Origin: Acidilobaceae archaeon
Lineage (GTDB): Archaea > Thermoproteota > Thermoprotei_A > Sulfolobales > Acidilobaceae
Assembly (NCBI GenBank): GCA_025058835.1
Contig: JANXEI010000001.1
Location: 438,561 to 502,560, forward strand
Direction of reading: 5' to 3'
Length of the DNA stretch: 64,000 nt
The translations under genes and the position numbers were made by a program. Position 1 is the first letter of the stretch. Each line of letters opens with the position of its first letter. Under the pieces are notes generated by a model that did not search any database, had not been told where the DNA came from, and was given only the letters and a program-made list of their open reading frames with translations. Below, piece by piece: positions 19,104-47,482 of the stretch.

Positions 19104-20066
19104 TTACTCCAGGAGCTGACGAAGGTACAGAGCGATCGCCATAGCCAGAACAGGCGGCACAGCCTCTCCCACCATGTTGTATTGGGCATCTCTGCTGCCC
19201 AGAAAGATGTGATGATCTGGGAAGGACATGAGTCTAGCCTGTTCCCTCACGGTGAGCAACCTCGGCTCGTAGGGGTGAACGAAGCGAGAAGACCCCATGA
19301 CCGTGGGAGCCCTTCTGCGAGGATCGAGTCTCACATAATTGGGCAGCGTCCCCTCTGCCCCTCTGAACCTTATCAGCGCTTTCCCCCACTTTAGCTTGGC
19401 CAGCCTATTTCTATGCCTCCTCGGCACCTCCGCTGGGTAGTCGTGATTGAGTAGGTGAGAGCCGGGCGGAGGCATATTGCCCAGAACCTCCTCTACAGAG
19501 GGCCCCAGAGACTTCGGCGGCGTAATCTTCGCGTTAGAAACGAAGACCCTCACCCTCTCGCTGGGGTTTCCATGATCCTCTGCCCTGAGGACGTTGAAGT
19601 AGACTCTCTCGTACCCTACTCTTCCCAACTCCTTAGTAATGCTCTCCCTTATGCTGTCTTCGAGAATACCCGGGACGTTCTCTATGACGAAAAGTCTCGG
19701 CCTGAGCTCCCCTATGAGCCTGATCGCGTGGAGGAACAAGACGCCCTGAGGATCGGTGTATAGCCTGTCCAGCGGGTCCTTTAGCCTATCTGGGTTAGCC
19801 GGAGTGAAGGGCTCGCAGGGAGGGCTAGCTATAACTACGTCCACCTCTTCGCTGCCTATGCCAGAAACCTCTTTGATCTCTCTTTGACTCACCTCCTTGA
19901 TGTCCTCTGCGATCACGACCGCGTTCGGGAAGTTTGCCTTGAAGGTCTTTGCAGCAGGCGGGTAGTTTTCTATTGCAACGACAGTCCGGAAGCCCGCGTC
20001 CTCAAAGCCCCGGGAGAAGCCTCCACCTCCAGAGAAAAGGTCAACTACTGTATACTCTCTTCTCAT
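19104..20066 (-). CDS. DNA (cytosine-5) methyltransferase, orphan
   Basis: A 320-residue SAM-dependent m5C DNA methyltransferase with all main motifs in order: motif [14 protein letters not shown] (9-21), motif IV with the catalytic PPC (82-84), motif VI ENV (129-131), motif VIII RVRVF near 172, and a C-terminal motif X (GEAVPPVLAMAIA). The target-recognition region between VIII and IX is short. No restriction endonuclease or vsr-type gene is next to it, so it looks like an orphan methylase. The start lies 26 bp inside tfe, so the two may be co-transcribed. Overlap with a core transcription-factor gene is unusual for a mobile methylase. The recognition sequence cannot be predicted by eye. Confidence 0.9.
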   Translation of the reverse strand: MRREYTVVDLFSGGGGFSRGFEDAGFRTVVAIENYPPAAKTFKANFPNAVVIAEDIKEVSQREIKEVSGIGSEEVDVVIASPPCEPFTPANPDRLKDPLDRLYTDPQGVLFLHAIRLIGELRPRLFVIENVPGILEDSIRESITKELGRVGYERVYFNVLRAEDHGNPSERVRVFVSNAKITPPKSLGPSVEEVLGNMPPPGSHLLNHDYPAEVPRRHRNRLAKLKWGKALIRFRGAEGTLPNYVRLDPRRRAPTVMGSSRFVHPYEPRLLTVREQARLMSFPDHHIFLGSRDAQYNMVGEAVPPVLAMAIALYLRQLLE

Positions 20067-20601
20067 CCTCCTCTATCTCCTGCTCCAGTTTCCTAATATA
20101 CCCCCCTAAGACCTCTACTGCCTTCTCGTTTTGACTCATCTCGAGCGGGGCTCCACAACTAGGGCAGAGGAACTCATTATCGAAGGCTTCGGAGAAGGAG
20201 TACCTGATCCCTTCTACAGGACAAACGTATTGCTTTGCGTTCGTCTCATACTCGAGCCTATGCTTGAGTTTGGAGAGCACCATTTTCTTCCTCTTCAGGA
20301 GGGCTAAGTTTATGGCATCTATGTCGACCCTCCAGAAGTACCTCGTTACTTCTTGCTCGGACAGCTTGCCCTTTGTGTGAACCATCATGTTCAGGTCGTA
20401 GAACATCCTGAGTATTTTCCTCACCTCTTGTTGCTTATAGCCCGTCATCTCCTCTAGCTCCACATCACTAAGGCCGTTTCCGTTGCTGTACTCCAGCACT
20501 AGCCTAAAGATGTGCTTTGCTTTCTGCGGCTCTATATCGTTCGCTATCGAGAGACGCTCTATCAGTTTCTCTAGCCCCTTCATTATTTTCTCAGCCGTCA
20601 A
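20041..20601 (-). CDS. tfe: Transcription factor E (TFIIE-alpha homologue)
   Basis: A 186-residue TFE, which helps open promoter DNA with TBP, TFB and RNA polymerase. N-terminal winged helix (about 15-90, with [23 protein letters not shown]), then a zinc-ribbon region at about 124-153. The first half of the ribbon reads YVCPVEG, so one of the four expected cysteines is missing; the second pair CPSC is intact. A C-terminal coiled helix follows. Starts TTG 20601 (overlapping the trm56 stop) or ATG 20583. The gene order trm56-tfe-methylase is tightly packed with overlaps. Confidence 0.92.
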
Positions 20602-21142
20602 CCCTCACCACTCTCTTACCCCTCTCGGAGGGAACGATCCTGAGCCTTGCATTCTCGTACCTTATACTACTCCACTGACCCCTATATAACCTATCTAAAA
20701 AGATGGCCAAGGCTGACACCTCGCTGTGGGGCTGATTGCCTATTGCCACGTTGTACTGAGCTATCTCGTAGAACTCCCTCCTCACCCTCTCTGAGCCGAC
20801 AACGACCAATTTCGGCTTTGGAGAGGAGGCTATGTTCTCTATTACTCTCTCCACAGGGATCCCATACATCGTAAGGTGGATAGTGTCCCCATCCCACGAA
20901 GAAGCATATTTTAGCCCATCTACGCCGCACTCTATGTGCATCTTCCCTCCCCACATTTTCAGGACCTTGTGGAGAGACCCTAGCACTTTGTCATCACAAG
21001 TCTCGAGCACGAATCCGTTGGCCCCGAAAGCCCTTGCCACAAGGGCTACGTGGGTCGTCACGCGCTTGTCCCGACTGGGTCTGTGGCCGAGGCGGAGCAC
21101 GTAGACCTTGTGGTATAACTCAGAGGGGTTGAAGGCGCTCAA
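20591..21142 (-). CDS. trm56: tRNA (cytidine-56-2'-O)-methyltransferase aTrm56
   Basis: A 183-residue SPOUT-class enzyme that 2'-O-methylates C56 in the T-loop of archaeal tRNAs. The N-terminal segment [12 protein letters not shown] followed by [13 protein letters not shown] is the family hallmark, and the knot region is [10 protein letters not shown] through [22 protein letters not shown] 21142 follows a GGAGG sequence and lies inside the end of hflX (23-bp overlap). The sequence from VYVLRLGHR onward is secure; the first dozen residues depend on this start. Confidence 0.92.
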
Positions 21143-22217
21143 CGGCCTCCCCCCTCTCCAGCCCGAGCGAGGTGATGATCGCGTCCTTCAGCTCTTCCAT
21201 TCCATGACCCGTGAGCGCAGAGATGGACACTATTGGAGAGCCTTGCCTCACTGCCTGGAGGAGCTGACGAAGGCCTGCGACCTTTTCCTCCACGGCCTCT
21301 GCCTTGTCCACCTTGTTTGCAGCCAGAACGAGGGGTTTGTCAAGCGCACCTATCTTCGACAGCGTGAGGAGCCCTGCGGCAACCTTCTCCTTCACGACCT
21401 CCCACCTCTCTGAAATATCCACGACGAAGAGCACCAGGTCGGAGTACTTTATCTCCTCCAGCACTACATGAAAGGCTTCAACGATCTCTGGAGGCACATC
21501 GCGTATAAAGCCTATAGTATCTATCATGACGATCTTCCTCCCCCTGATGTCGGTTGCCGTATGTTTCGGCTGGAGGGTCGTGAAGTACTCCTCCCCCACC
21601 TTTCTGGACTCTCCCGTCAGGCTGTTAAAGAGGGATGTCTTCCCGGCAGATGCGTAACCAACTATTGCTACGTGAGGGATACCGCTCTCCCTCCTCGCCG
21701 TCATTCTACTCACCCTCTGCCTTCTCAAGTCCTCCAGCTCCCTCCTGATCCTGGCTAGCCTGCTCGTTAAGTGCCTGTAGTAGCCATCTATCGCGTAGCC
21801 ACCCGGCCCCAGGAAGCCTGGCAGTTCTCCTAGCTTGCTCCTCCTCAGCCACTCCCTCACGAGAGGTATCTCGTGCTTTATCTTGGCCATCTCTATCTGC
21901 AGCTGAGCCTCCCTCGTTCCTGCGTGTCTTATGAATATCTCTAGGATGAGCATAACGCGGTCAATGACGCGGAGCCTAGAGCTCTTCATTAACTGAAAGG
22001 CAGAGGAGGGCTGTATCTCTCCGTAGAATATCAAAGTGCTGGGGTTATCTTGTTTCGTAGCCCTCCCTATCTCCTCCATCAGTCCCCTCCCGACTCTCCT
22101 CCTATATCTTGTCCTCCAGGTCCTCACCACGCTGTAGCCTGCCATCTTCGCCAGGAGGAGAGACTCCTCTAAGTGATCGTCGAGCTCTCTAGGGATGATT
22201 AGGTAGGCTCTCTCCAG
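21120..22217 (-). CDS. hflX: Ribosome-associated GTPase HflX, probable CUG start
   Basis: HflX-type GTPase. N-terminal HflX domain, coiled region (about 150-175 of the longer form), G domain with P-loop [10 protein letters not shown]3 DTIGF and G4 NKVD. The first standard start, ATG 22145, would cut off 24 in-frame codons ([19 protein letters not shown] and onward) that match the usual HflX N-terminus. No ATG, GTG or TTG lies in those codons. The frame is closed at 22218 by the stop of mbf1, and the first codon after it is CTG, placed 6 bases after a GGTGAG SD sequence. I therefore place the start at CTG 22217 (365 residues), coupled to mbf1. HflX proteins bind the large ribosomal subunit and split stalled ribosomes in bacteria. 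Confidence 0.88.
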
Positions 22218-22718
22218 CTACTCCTCACCCTTCCTTATGTTCACAACGTCTCCCAGCGTGATCTTACCTGGCCCCTTTCCATATTCTTCCTCTATGTCCT
22301 CGGTAGGAACTAGCAGCTTGATCTTCAGGACTTCCTCCAGACTCTTTGCAAGACCGACAGTAAGCTTATACCTCCCCGATTCTATCTTTCTGATCAGGTC
22401 TGCGCTGACTCTGAGCCTCTGGGCCAGCACGGCTTCGCTCCATCCCCTCTCCTCTCTCGCCTTTCTGATCTTCTCTGCATAACCCTCTACTATGTCAAAG
22501 CTCTCCATCTTTGATCTTGGCTTGGGCTTCTGCACATGCTTCTCCTCCTTCTGGGCTTTGGTAGTCTCTGCGACCAGCGCCCTCGAGCCCAGCTTGCTAG
22601 CGCACCGAGGGCAGGCACTTACTTCCATGTCCTCTATCCTCACCTTACGAAGGCTCTCTGCCGGGGATCCGCAGATATCGCAATAGAGAGGCTGCTTGCC
22701 CCTCAACGTCATGACCAT
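22218..22718 (-). CDS. mbf1: Multiprotein bridging factor 1 (aMBF1)
   Basis: A 166-residue protein with an N-terminal zinc ribbon (CDICG and CPRC), a basic linker and a C-terminal Cro/C1-type helix-turn-helix (about 85-140, REERGWSEAVLAQRLRVSADLIRKIESG). This is the archaeal form of MBF1, a conserved factor linked to transcription or translation. ATG 22718 or ATG 22712 may start it. A TATA-like stretch lies about 25 bp upstream. It is the first gene of the run mbf1-hflX-trm56-tfe-methylase, all overlapping or abutting. Confidence 0.9.
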   Translation of the reverse strand: MVMTLRGKQPLYCDICGSPAESLRKVRIEDMEVSACPRCASKLGSRALVAETTKAQKEEKHVQKPKPRSKMESFDIVEGYAEKIRKAREERGWSEAVLAQRLRVSADLIRKIESGRYKLTVGLAKSLEEVLKIKLLVPTEDIEEEYGKGPGKITLGDVVNIRKGEE

Positions 22719-22790: not shown

Positions 22791-23972
22791 TTGAAATATC
22801 TCAGGAGGACCAGAGAGCTAGGGAGAAGTTTGCACGGCGACGAGGACAAGGTAGAGGTAAAGCTGTTGAGGGAGAAAGTGAAAATGCTCACCCAGGCTAA
22901 GGTGAATTTGGAGAAGGACCTGGAGTACTATCGGGAGGAGATAGCCAAACTCTTGGCCCCTCCTCACATAGAGGCTGTGGTGCTGGAGGTTCTCGAAGAG
23001 GGGAAATACCTGGTGAAGAGCAGCTCTGGTCCTAACCTGATAGTAACCGTAGCCGAAGGCGTTGACAAGAGCGCCATAAGAGTAGGCTCCGCCGTAGCCC
23101 TCAACGGCAGGGGCTCTGCTATAGTAGGCGTTCTGCCCAACGTGTACGATAGTTTTGTGAGAGCTATGGTCGTGGAGAGAAAGCCCAAGGTGAGCTTCAG
23201 GGACATAGGAGGGCTGGAGGAGCAGATAAGGGAGCTATATGAGGTCGTAGTGCTCCCCCTCAAAAGGCCGGAGCTCTTCCAGGAGATGGGCGTAGAGCCT
23301 CCCAAGGGGGTCCTCCTACATGGCCCACCAGGAACGGGTAAGACCTTGCTGGCAAGAGCAGTGGCAGGGGAGAGCGATGCTACCTTCATAAAGCTCACGG
23401 CGAGCGAGCTAGTGAACAAGTTCATAGGGGAGGGCGCACGGCTAGTGAGGGAGGTGTTCAGGCTAGCGAGGGAGATGTCGCCCTCCATAGTCTTCATAGA
23501 CGAGATCGATGGAATAGGTGCTAGGAGGGTGGAGATGGGCACGAGCGGGGAGAGGGAGGTGCAGAGGACCCTTCTCCAGCTATTGGCAGAACTGGACGGC
23601 TTCGATCCCCTCTCGGGAGTGAGGGTCATCGCGGCAACTAACAGGATCGATGTGCTGGACCCAGCCCTGCTCAGGCCGGGGAGGTTTGACAGGATCGTGG
23701 AGCTCCCGCTTCCCGACCTGAGGGGGAGGCTGGAGATCCTGAGGATCCATACCAGGAAGACTCCACTAGGCGATGACGTGGACCTTCGGGAGATAGCTGC
23801 ACTCACAGATGGGTTCAGCGGGGCCTCCCTCAAGGCTCTGGTGACGGAGGCAGCTTACTTTGCTATTCGGAGGCGCTCTTCGAAGGTAGAGAGGGAGGAT
23901 CTGCTCAAGGCGCTTGAGAAGGTGCGTCACGCAGGCCCGCGGCCCAGAGGGGGCGACAGTATAGCCATCTAG
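22791..23972 (+). CDS. pan: Proteasome-activating nucleotidase (PAN) without HbYX tail
   Basis: A 393-residue AAA ATPase of the Rpt/PAN family. N-terminal coiled coil (about 20-57), OB-like domain (about 58-125), then the AAA domain with Walker A GPPGTGKT (178-185), Walker B FIDEID, and the second region of homology ([18 protein letters not shown]). PAN unfolds proteins and threads them into the 20S core. Docking normally uses a C-terminal hydrophobic-Tyr-X motif; this protein ends in GGDSIAI and has none. TTG 22791 has no strong SD sequence. The matching alpha-subunit gene is not in the window; a beta-type subunit is at 58091-58702. Confidence 0.9.
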
Positions 23973-43595: not shown

Positions 43596-46500
43596 TCTAA
43601 CAGCTCCCCCCCTCCTGCTCCTACGTCATTCCTTGATAGGAATAGCCTTATAGGTCGTGAAAGTCCCCGAATCTCTCTATAGAGCTCCTTCACCACTGCT
43701 TGCCAGTACTTGCTGCCCCTCTCTACCTCGTCCATCGCTCTCTCGAGGTCCCTCGTCCTCTCTTCTGTAACTAGAGCAGGCACTATCCTCAGGTGCTTAC
43801 CAACGAACTCTATAGATCTCATCTCTTTCTTCTCCAGCTCCTTCGTCAGGAACATCAGACTCATCTTTCCCATCTTCGTTGGCACTACGTATTCCCTCCT
43901 CTTTTTCGGAGCGATCACGTAGCCCCTCTTGAACAAGGTCTCAAGGATCTGAGAGTAAGTGCTAGGCCTCCCTATTCCCCTGCTCTTCATCTGTTCCACG
44001 ATATCTGCCTGCGTCATCAAGGGCAACTTTCTGATCCTCTTTTTCTTCACGCTAGCTTCAACTTCGCCCACCCTAAGAGGCCTGGGCTTCGGCCCGAACT
44101 TCCATACCAGCGTGAAGCCAGAGGCAGAGGCGTTCTCAGAGCTCGGATCGCCAACTTCAACGACTCTTTCCTCCGTTATCGTAACAGAACCCTCCTGGCC
44201 TACTACCTCTATCTGATAAGTTCCCTTAACCACTCTCACCTTTTTCATCTGGCTAGCCATAAACCTCCTGAAGATCATATCGTAGAGCTCGAGGTGTCTA
44301 TTCGTGACCTCGGGCAACTCTATGAGACCCTCCTCTACGTAAGACATCAGGGTCTCCGCATCGAGAGGTCTCACAGGCCTTATCGCCTCATGAGCCCCTT
44401 CCTCTCCCCATCTCCTAAGCTCCATCAGTTCCCCGTGTCTCTCCCCAAATTTCTCAGAGAGCCACATCTTGGCAATTTCCAGCCCTTTCTCGCTTACCCT
44501 GGTAGAGTCTGTCCTGTGATATGTGATGAGGCCCCAGGTGAAGAGGTCTTGCGCAAGCCTCATGGCCTCCGCAGCCCCCATTCTCAGGTATCTGTTAGCA
44601 TCAGCGATCAGAGTATCTGTCGTGTAGGGAGGCGGGGGACTAGCCTCCTCTATCTTTGTTGAGACAAGGGATATCCTTACCTTAACCCCTTTCCTTTTCT
44701 TCCAGGCCCTCCTCAGGAACCCAGCAACTCTCTCTTCTATTGCATCCTCTCGAAGAGCTATGAGAGGTTCGCTGTCGGCATCTATTAGGTATAGGTCAAC
44801 GGGCTTCCTCTCCTCTTCCCTTTTTACCAACCATCCCATCACCGGAGTCTGCACTCTCCCTGCACTCAGGTTGTAGTTGAACTTTCTCTCGCAAAGTTTG
44901 GTCTCCCTTGGGGAGAGGCGCGACTGGGAACAGTACCTCGGCCAAAAGATGCACCACAGGAGGGGCGATAGAGTGAAGCCTATCCACCTGTCCTCGATCC
45001 TCCTCACGAGCTGTGCCTCTACTAGCCTTTCGTTGAACTCCCGCGGACTTGCTAGCGAGCTAAGTATCTCTTCCCTCGTCACCTCGTGGAACTCAATCCT
45101 TCTGATCTTCTGGGAGTAGGGCGAGAGCGCCAGGAAGAGATCCCATCCTATCTTTTCGCCCTCCGTATCAGGATCCGTGCCTATCAGCACTTCGTCGACT
45201 TCCCATGCTGCTCTCCTCAAGTCCTCTATGATTTGGGCTGAGTCTTCTATCTTCTTGCTGCCACACATAGGACAAACGGGGCTCTCCGAAGCGAACCGAT
45301 AGCCGCAAGAAAGACATCTCTTTCGCGTAGCGAAAACGGGGACGAAAGCTCTACTGCGATTTCCGACTAGGACCCCGAAGACGTTCTCGTAACGGGAGTA
45401 AGGCTTGGGTAACTTCGTTGTGTCCATGCCGAGAGTTAGGTCGTAAACATGGCCGCCGCTTGCAGCTATCATGAGGAGATGGTTGGGCAGAGTCACCTCG
45501 TATATTCTGAGCCCGTTCTGCATTATCCTTACCGCAGGCCTACCGAAGAACGATGCGATGGTCCTCGCCTTGTTTGGGGACTCCACGACGAGCAGAACTG
45601 ATTTCATGAGGTCTACGTTCTTCTTTCTCTCCTTCATCCTCCTCCTTTCCTCAGAGATCTCGCGCAAGATCACGTCTAGCTCGAGCTCGCTGAGAGAGCT
45701 CCACTTTGTAGATGTTAGTCTCCTCAGCCTCGTCACAAGATCGTTGAAGACCAACCTGTCGTCCACGAGCACAACGCTCAGTCCCTTTGTTAACCCGCCT
45801 GCGTATAACCTACTGCTCCTCCCACTACCCTGGATGTACGTGGCGACATCAGCTATCCTTATGTACTTGCGACCATTTACCTCCGCAATGGATATGTCTC
45901 CTCTCTTGCTCAGCTCCTCCCAGACTTCCTCCCTCTTCATGACCTCATTTACAAAGTCCCGAGCCTTCACGATGATCTTGTACACCGGCGAATCGTCAGC
46001 CTCTCCCCTCTCTATCTTCTCAGTGATGCTCTGCAGATAAGCAGGGCTGAACCTCCTCAATACCCGTCGCAGCTCTGCAAGTTTCCTCCTGGCCTCCTCC
46101 ACTATCTCTGGCCTGCTCGATTTAGTGAGGATAGAGAGGAGCCTCGTCAGGTTTATAACGCTCGGCCTCTCTGCCCCTACCCTCAAGACTATCTTAGGAA
46201 CTCCCACAAAGACTACGTGCTTTATCCTTTGGGGGAGATCGAGTCCTCTTACTAGTAGTCCGTAATAGTCTGCTATTCCGACTAGCACTTCTATGTTCCC
46301 CTTCTTGAAGTCCTCTAATTTCCTTGGAGCAGCCGACTTGCTATGGTACGCCTCTGCCCTTACTCCCTTTTTCTTTAGCAGCTCTGTCAGTTCATCTGCC
46401 TTCTCTGTTCCCAGCTCTTTTGAGACGAAAACTAGAGTACCATCTCCGAGCTTCGACACTAAAGAAACCGCCTCCTGGAGGGGATCATCGGCAAAGAGGT

Positions 46501-47482
46501 AAGCATCTACTATGTTCCTGAGGCCTACGTCGCTGCCTCCCCCTACCTCGAAGCCCAACAGAGCTCTGAAGAGTCTGCTCGCGCTCCCCCTAGCCCTCCC
46601 CGTTGCGCTGCTTACGATGAGCTGAGATACATTTGCTTTGATCTCCTCAACCCTCTTCTTTAGGGAGTCTCTCCTCTCGTATAGTTCTGAGACGTTTTCT
46701 CCACTGTTCCTCCTTTCTGCTATCTTTCTCTGTACTGCTAGGAGCTCCTCTCCTGTTCTTATGTCCTCCTCGCTGAGCCCAGCAACCCTTAGGACTGCTC
46801 TTACGCTCCGGTTGCTCTTCAGGACCGCGTCTACGTCGTCCACGAAGATCAGAGCGAAGCCGTGGCGGGAGAGCTGGTCAGCGTAGGCGCGGGCGAAAGC
46901 TATGGTCGCAAGGAGGATGTCGAAGTTACCCTCTATGACGTCTCTCAGAACTTCCTCCCTCTTTTTCACCTTTCCATGGTAGCCAAGTACTCTGAGCTGA
47001 CAACCGGATTTGCTCACGAACTTCTCGAGCCTTTCTGTGAACTCCCTGACCAACGTGGTCGTGGGAACGAGGATGAGAGCTCTGTGCTTGCTCTGGCCTT
47101 TTCTGCACGCAAAGAAAATGGAGGCCACTAAGCCGAAGACCGTTTTACCGGTGCCGGTCGGTGCCATTATGCTAAAACTGTCCCCTCTTATAACGCGTCT
47201 TATCCATGACCTCTGAGCTCCCCACGGCTTACCGACAAGCTTGCTGAAAAGTTTTGCCAGCTCTTCTGCCCTACTCTCCAACTCCCATATCTCTGCCATG
47301 GCTCCTAACGTTCCATGTCTCATCAACGCCTTCTGGAGGTTCTTTCTTGACACATCTTTGACCTTTGGCAGGCACTTGGAACATGGAAGCCCCTTCCTTA
47401 GCCTTCTCTCATCTATCGCTCCTCCGCAGTTAGGGCACGAGTTTAGGTAGATGCCCTTCGTCCCTCTCAGCGATCGTCTCAA
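43538..47482 (-). CDS. rgy: Reverse gyrase
   Basis: A 1314-residue fusion of a helicase-like half and a type IA topoisomerase, which introduces positive supercoils; it is the marker protein of hyperthermophiles. N-terminal zinc finger C16/C19-C34/C37, Walker A APTGTGKT (107-114), DEAD-box equivalent VDDVD near 205, latch region, second zinc finger (CLSCG and CPMCG, near residue 720), TOPRIM acidic segment GTDPDTEGEK and active-site Tyr988 in TYHRTDSTR. Length is complete, with no intein or split. TTG 47482 follows GGAG. The 3' end overlaps the nitrilase-like gene. Some crenarchaea carry two copies; only one is in this window. Confidence 0.98.
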   Translation of the reverse strand: MRRSLRGTKGIYLNSCPNCGGAIDERRLRKGLPCSKCLPKVKDVSRKNLQKALMRHGTLGAMAEIWELESRAEELAKLFSKLVGKPWGAQRSWIRRVIRGDSFSIMAPTGTGKTVFGLVASIFFACRKGQSKHRALILVPTTTLVREFTERLEKFVSKSGCQLRVLGYHGKVKKREEVLRDVIEGNFDILLATIAFARAYADQLSRHGFALIFVDDVDAVLKSNRSVRAVLRVAGLSEEDIRTGEELLAVQRKIAERRNSGENVSELYERRDSLKKRVEEIKANVSQLIVSSATGRARGSASRLFRALLGFEVGGGSDVGLRNIVDAYLFADDPLQEAVSLVSKLGDGTLVFVSKELGTEKADELTELLKKKGVRAEAYHSKSAAPRKLEDFKKGNIEVLVGIADYYGLLVRGLDLPQRIKHVVFVGVPKIVLRVGAERPSVINLTRLLSILTKSSRPEIVEEARRKLAELRRVLRRFSPAYLQSITEKIERGEADDSPVYKIIVKARDFVNEVMKREEVWEELSKRGDISIAEVNGRKYIRIADVATYIQGSGRSSRLYAGGLTKGLSVVLVDDRLVFNDLVTRLRRLTSTKWSSLSELELDVILREISEERRRMKERKKNVDLMKSVLLVVESPNKARTIASFFGRPAVRIMQNGLRIYEVTLPNHLLMIAASGGHVYDLTLGMDTTKLPKPYSRYENVFGVLVGNRSRAFVPVFATRKRCLSCGYRFASESPVCPMCGSKKIEDSAQIIEDLRRAAWEVDEVLIGTDPDTEGEKIGWDLFLALSPYSQKIRRIEFHEVTREEILSSLASPREFNERLVEAQLVRRIEDRWIGFTLSPLLWCIFWPRYCSQSRLSPRETKLCERKFNYNLSAGRVQTPVMGWLVKREEERKPVDLYLIDADSEPLIALREDAIEERVAGFLRRAWKKRKGVKVRISLVSTKIEEASPPPPYTTDTLIADANRYLRMGAAEAMRLAQDLFTWGLITYHRTDSTRVSEKGLEIAKMWLSEKFGERHGELMELRRWGEEGAHEAIRPVRPLDAETLMSYVEEGLIELPEVTNRHLELYDMIFRRFMASQMKKVRVVKGTYQIEVVGQEGSVTITEERVVEVGDPSSENASASGFTLVWKFGPKPRPLRVGEVEASVKKKRIRKLPLMTQADIVEQMKSRGIGRPSTYSQILETLFKRGYVIAPKKRREYVVPTKMGKMSLMFLTKELEKKEMRSIEFVGKHLRIVPALVTEERTRDLERAMDEVERGSKYWQAVVKELYREIRGLSRPIRLFLSRNDVGAGGGELLECLREARGVFGEENQEEQR

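Follow-up and report, generated by a model that had tools for sequence, protein, structure and literature searches.

A vertically inherited orphan C5-cytosine DNA methyltransferase of the HG2 type encoded behind the transcription factor gene tfe in an Acidilobaceae archaeon

In E. coli, the orphan methylase Dcm acts on CCWGG and is partnered by Vsr repair. The HG2 enzymes of archaea resemble Dcm as orphan methylases of CCWGG and are presented in the survey describing them as persistent orphan m5C methylases. They occur there in 99 of 100 Crenarchaeota, in 19 of 24 Methanococci and in all 9 Pyrococcus; almost universal carriage of HG2 by hyperthermophilic crenarchaea is thereby already known (PMC10609329). 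Two of them, M.SuaII of S. acidocaldarius and M.Asp7I of Acidilobus sp. 7A, modify CCWGG when cloned in E. coli (PMC10609329). Dot blots of S. acidocaldarius DNA gave no detectable m5C, and low-level m5C at another motif is also mentioned in the available text (PMC5809426). Because m5C was not seen in this DNA, the authors of the survey, who ask why hyperthermophiles keep HG2 at all, propose silencing (PMC10609329). A further archaeal enzyme, M.ApeKI of Aeropyrum pernix, is a biochemically proven thermostable m5C methylase (PMC8557920).

The gene analysed here lies at 19104-20066 on the minus strand of a 64,000-nucleotide stretch of DNA from an Acidilobaceae archaeon (the window, as the whole stretch is called below) and encodes, from an ATG start, a 320-aa C5-cytosine DNA methyltransferase of the HG2 / M.SuaII type. 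A sequence-only reading had recognized a C5-methylase gene here, and the open reading frame together with profile searches against PF00145 (E=1.7e-47, 162.9 bits, cut-off 22) and TIGR00675 dcm (149.7 bits, cut-off 100.65) bears this out; the source genome has no other PF00145 match. When its AlphaFold2 model (pLDDT 96.4) was used in a structure search, DNMT1 was the top match (Z 34.8), with M.HaeIII at Z 33.1 and M.HhaI at about 30. Taken together, profile, catalytic residues and model identify the protein as a C5-cytosine DNA methyltransferase. Its closest named match is encoded on an Acidilobaceae archaeon metagenome contig (79% identity), followed by proteins of Aeropyrum, Thermogladius, Pyrolobus and Pyrodictium.

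All C5 motifs, described as intact in the sequence-only reading, are indeed present and the catalytic Cys is kept, but motifs IV and X are non-canonical. Specifically, motif IV (residues 82-85; 19812-19823, minus strand) reads PPCE, with C84 as the catalytic residue, rather than PPCQ, and motif X (residues 300-304; 19155-19169, minus strand) reads GEAVP, giving G-E-x-V rather than GNxV. Both departures are fixed: PPC-E, with its catalytic Cys, and G-E-x-V are invariant in all 87 orthologous loci compared (83 genomes), as are G300, E301, V303 and P304 individually and the ENV of motif VI (residues 129-131; 19674-19682, minus strand), such that the usual Gln after the catalytic Cys and the usual Asn of motif X are absent, with Glu at both positions, in 87 of 87. 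The corresponding residues of M.HhaI, Gln82 and Asn304, form part of the lining of its donor pocket. Most of the non-HG2 methylases compared carry the canonical residues in motifs IV and X, and PPC-E was confined to HG2 among the sequences compared; a plasmid sequence (L232) has MPC-E and, in motif X, G-D.

Canonical residues are nevertheless usual rather than strictly defining, and the Glu residues would not exclude the window protein from the C5-methyltransferases, since Glu is likewise found in motif X of the M.ApeKI-type sequence L204 and other non-HG2 sequences vary there too. Membership is indicated by the PF00145 cut-off, which is passed, and by C84, E129-N130-V131, R171 and R173, found in 87 of 87 loci. 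Similarities to M.ApeKI, which we take locus L204 to represent, extend to its being an archaeal thermostable C5-methylase from the same organism family with G-E-A-V in motif X; it differs from the window methylase in its length (~470 aa), its PPCQ motif IV, its pairing with ApeKI and its target, GCWGC, and the two are 36% identical over part of their length. C5-methylases of ~470 aa resembling M.ApeKI (L194, L196, L197, L204, L210) occur in several families of the order and have G-E-A-V in motif X, as HG2 does. Motif X was also considered as a sign of new chemistry, a suggestion weakened by the finding that L204 has G-E-A-V as well and that M.ApeKI makes m5C (PMC8557920); as it recurs in an m5C-making archaeal type, the motif X Glu need not imply new chemistry.

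A further comparison is offered by a DNA cytosine C5-carboxymethyltransferase (PDB 8yf3), the second-best PDB sequence match of the window methylase (E=1.8e-26), which shares its fold (Z 32.1) and likewise departs from the canonical residues, with Ser in motif IV and Arg in motif X. This enzyme uses carboxy-SAM; in HG2 both positions are Glu, and m5C was the product of its orthologs in E. coli.

With the HG2 methylases themselves the window gene shares family, near-universal crenarchaeal presence and orphan state, and no difference in kind was observed. Judged by the features that mark the group, namely an ortholog throughout the taxon and no cognate nuclease adjoining, the window methylase belongs to HG2. 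Its target would by analogy be CCWGG, since one tested ortholog is from a Sulfolobus and the other from an Acidilobus, and the family of the window holds Acidilobus genomes. The least conserved part of the protein is the target-recognition region of ~65 aa (residues 179-243, with boundaries of our own placing; 19338-19532, minus strand), where mean pairwise identity is 43% compared with 57% and 69% in the flanking parts. In this region the window protein is 29-37% identical to the orthologs compared, which we take to be the S. acidocaldarius and Acidilobus enzymes, just as we assume the placing of Acidilobus in the window's family; at such identity a CCWGG specificity for the window protein is an extrapolation.

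Within the order, a methylase match was obtained in 197 of 214 genomes, and in all 118 of the good genomes (completeness >=90%, contamination <=5%). At the level of the class the figures are 203 of 229 genomes and 121 of 122 good ones; two of the 203 matches are weak (E 2.9e-18 and 1.6e-11) and fall in one family, which seems to be without the ortholog. Mean identity across 87 loci in 83 genomes is 57% for the methylase and 36% for TFE, and the methylase is the more conserved of the two in 97.9% of 3741 pairs. A phylogeny of the methylase set against that of tfe, one of the checks suggested by the sequence-only reading, reveals a shared history: 48 of 84 splits are common to the two trees, compared with at most 2 after label shuffling, and 4 of 53 well-supported methylase splits are contradicted by the TFE tree. 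Based on the identity comparison and the shared splits, the methylase is inherited vertically under strong constraint. In codon usage the gene does not stand out within the window (rank 24 among 62 genes; GC3 0.66, range 0.59-0.75). The best plasmid and phage matches among those listed are ~29-35% identical to the methylase, and viral contigs, when scanned, yielded two relatives with 30-36% identity, the alignments covering about half of its length. The view that the gene is domesticated is supported by this vertical inheritance, by its conserved linkage to tfe, and by plasmid and phage matches that, among those listed, do not exceed ~35% identity.

The reported overlap with tfe was confirmed. 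The gene for transcription factor E alpha (20041-20601, minus strand; 186 aa as listed from the first TTG) matches TFIIE_alpha PF02002 above the Pfam cut-off (E=8e-8) and two NCBIfam TFE models below their curated cut-offs (E 6e-28 and 6e-24), and its 3' end overlaps the methylase start by 26 nt (20041-20066, minus strand, from the coordinates of the reading frames). Upstream in the same row, all on the minus strand, are genes for the tRNA ribose methyltransferase aTrm56 (20591-21142; PF01994, E=1.7e-43), the GTPase HflX (21120-22145; TIGR03156, 235 bits, over cut-off) and the multiprotein bridging factor aMBF1 (22218-22718; TIGR00270, over cut-off), followed by a divergent gene for the proteasome-activating nucleotidase (22791-23972, plus strand; TIGR01242, 543 bits, over cut-off). 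Downstream of the methylase are genes for a hypothetical protein, an M50 peptidase-like protein and NMN adenylyltransferase. In agreement with the sequence-only reading, profile searches among the flanking genes gave no candidate for a cognate nuclease.

The arrangement is not peculiar to the window. In all 92 distinct genomes having upstream sequence, four of them outside the order, tfe lies directly upstream of the methylase gene on the same strand. This count comprises 80 genomes (85 rows minus five duplicates: the window and L010, L002 and L011, L003 and L021, L004 and L020, L007 and L059), three added to these (G190, G192, G193) and nine further ones (G104, G123, G155, G161, G212, G214, G216, G217, G218); L008 and L202, in which the methylase is cut by a contig end, and L009, a chance match in Mycoplasmopsis, were omitted, and in the genome of L202 the other methylase piece (L217) follows tfe. 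When the start codon nearest the conserved core is taken, overlapping frames are seen at 76 of 86 loci, and in the others the gap does not exceed 11 nt. Among 28 context loci, the same-strand upstream genes include aTrm56 in 28, HflX in 27 and aMBF1 in 26; of the two loci without aMBF1, L005 has just 1.6 kb of upstream sequence and L071 has more than 9 kb, in which aTrm56 alone is visible. An mbf1-pan-hflX-tfe neighbourhood has been published, with the methylase unnamed in the text available (PMC3062615). A search of the literature for the linkage of tfe and the methylase, including the available text of the HG2 survey, did not find it (PMC10609329), and the fixed place of the methylase behind tfe looks new. 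A further paper, in the text available, contributed no information about HG2 (PMC13076061).

The sequence-only reading had found an m5C methylase surprising in a hyperthermophile. A hyperthermophilic source is plausible, in that the 1.2 Mb genome encodes two full-length reverse gyrases over the curated cut-off (43667-47458 of the window, minus strand, and G000:C11:65693-69199, plus strand) and the organism therefore likely lives at high temperature; the puzzle, however, has already been published and the gene is no lone oddity (PMC10609329). As to repair of the T:G mismatches expected from m5C, which had been proposed as worth seeking, no dedicated enzyme was found in the source genome. Specifically, the genome yielded no NucS, no Vsr, one uracil glycosylase, of family 4 (UDG), and two HhH-GPD proteins, the catalytic residues of which were read by eye, one being endonuclease III-like and the other without the catalytic Asp. 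This second kind is seen in the HhH-GPD protein L041 (1372-2088 of contig C22, minus strand), which has an iron-sulphur Cys motif and a Ser at the position of the endonuclease III catalytic Asp, and which resembles the alkylation-repair protein Sis-HhH-GPD of S. islandicus as far as the latter is described in the available text (PMC11754123). Of the 211 genomes of the order that were searched, one contains a Vsr match; among control genomes the search gave a match in 5 of 14. The window methylase is thereby set apart from Dcm with its Vsr partner. The sole Vsr match (G123, contig C213; L195, L190) adjoins a second C5-methylase, of 498 aa, on the same contig.

Methylation of CCWGG combined with poor repair at about 90 degrees would be expected to convert the inner C into T. 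Synonymous third positions inside CCWGG were therefore compared with matched contexts in samples of 400 kb from each of two Aeropyrum species and three Saccharolobus species, with genes called by a simple longest-ORF rule; crude counts over all positions were set aside because codon position confounds them. In Aeropyrum the odds ratios for keeping C were 1.08 (0.97-1.21) and, in the other strand reading, 0.91 (0.79-1.05), revealing no loss, and the divergence ratios of 1.08 (0.84-1.38) and 0.96 (0.68-1.36) revealed no excess of C-to-T change. The Saccharolobus odds ratios, from three genomes that are not independent, were 0.69 (0.54-0.90) and 1.00 (0.73-1.37), that is, one weak positive and one null. 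Fits made for each context found none of the four CCWGG contexts low in Aeropyrum and three of four low in Saccharolobus (z -3.29, -3.18 and -3.91, the fourth +1.62), where ACAGG and TCAGG lay far below the CCWGG contexts (z about -11); these fits leave CCWGG without special standing. Within the window alone, a small sample, the odds ratios were 0.86 (0.52-1.45) and 1.06 (0.60-1.85), and CCWGG and CCSGG counts were equally low (observed/expected 0.86 each). As a control, GCWGC, the site of M.ApeKI, showed no mutation trace in A. pernix either, so silence at a site is no proof that the mark is absent, and the null in Aeropyrum fits an absent mark at CCWGG as well as good repair.

Two other avoidances were seen in the same samples. 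Saccharolobus (G190, G192, G193; L130-L189) strongly avoids CAG codons before G when these follow A or T (49 and 61 observed against 181 and 193 expected), less markedly after C, which is perhaps an avoidance of Shine-Dalgarno-like AGG. Aeropyrum (G011, G012; L090-L129) avoids C at xC[Y]GGC, or CCGGC at codon ends (471 observed against 593 expected, z -8.3).

The interpretation we consider probable is that the gene encodes a housekeeping orphan methylase of the HG2 type, vertically inherited and probably co-transcribed with tfe, whose CCWGG mark is sparse, conditional or well repaired. According to this proposal, the enzyme would flip the inner C of CCWGG and methylate its C5 with SAM, the specificity being taken from orthologs and the mechanism from the family. 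It would be translated from the tfe mRNA, so that its production would accompany that of TFE alpha instead of being switched off; such steady production is probable given that its frame overlaps the end of tfe and that TFE alpha of S. solfataricus stays at a steady level from exponential to stationary phase, as reported in the text available (PMC4495717). In the living cell the mark would be sparse, conditional, or repaired enough to leave no clear mutation trace and, if it is neither sparse nor conditional, the resulting T:G mismatches would be repaired by an as yet unassigned enzyme. The methylase most likely serves to mark the chromosome in transcription, replication or repair, and a role as half of a restriction system is unlikely. 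Weighing against a housekeeping CCWGG mark are the m5C-negative dot blot of S. acidocaldarius (PMC5809426), which, as far as the available text allows, suggests that native DNA may be almost free of the mark, and the Aeropyrum genomes, in which CCWGG shows neither depletion nor excess C-to-T change; the 29-37% identity of the recognition region weighs against CCWGG as the target of the window protein in particular.

Possible but unlikely is the proposal of the HG2 survey authors, that the methylase is silent most of the time and used in a special state only. Orthologs are active when cloned (PMC10609329) while no m5C was seen in exponential S. acidocaldarius in the text available (PMC5809426), and the lack of a clear CCWGG mutation trace would also be explained, but in all relatives examined the gene either overlaps tfe or lies directly against it, and production of TFE alpha is steady (PMC4495717), such that silencing would require post-transcriptional control or an internal terminator. 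A doubtful suggestion, more speculative still, is that the methylase works together with the basal transcription machinery: in every lineage examined it would be produced from the tfe mRNA, and it would act on promoters or in their vicinity, or on DNA opened transiently, rather than all over the genome. If true, such promoter-local action would explain why the methylase is more conserved than TFE, why m5C is not seen in the bulk DNA of a relative and why Aeropyrum CCWGG bears no trace; in a bolder variant, the double-Glu donor pocket (E85, E301) might let the native enzyme use or place a group other than plain methyl.

Methylation of CCWGG could alternatively shield the chromosome from the cutters of competitors, viruses or plasmids. 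Nucleases that cut CCWGG exist, PspGI of Pyrococcus being one, but EcoRII-C was found in none of 211 genomes of the order (the control genomes also gave no match), the methylase has no adjoining nuclease, its strict vertical inheritance and core-gene linkage differ from those of defence genes, and the phage and plasmid matches, among those listed, are about 29-35% identical; self-protection is therefore quite improbable. Another PF00145 enzyme, DNMT2, acts on RNA, and the gene row with aTrm56 and HflX might by analogy point to RNA as the natural substrate here, as might the absence of detected m5C from the DNA of a relative in the text available (PMC5809426). Given that two orthologs methylate a DNA palindrome in E. 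coli (PMC10609329) and that DNA enzymes are the best structural matches, an RNA methylase is very improbable. A stray methylase recently acquired from a restriction system, where the fold is common, can be dismissed, being ruled out by near-universal presence, tfe linkage, a tree shared with tfe and ordinary codon use; the recent acquisition with a linked nuclease that would have told against domestication was not found.

The housekeeping reading bears upon a broader problem, in that a mutagenic effect of m5C is to be expected at high temperature, and yet an HG2 methylase is retained by almost all crenarchaea. Whatever the answer, the absence of a CCWGG trace in Aeropyrum means that the expected mutational cost is not visibly paid there. 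The constant position of the gene behind tfe argues against a simple silencing of its transcription, the published explanation, and, by making the methylase look like a housekeeping gene, it sharpens the published puzzle and renders it easier to test.
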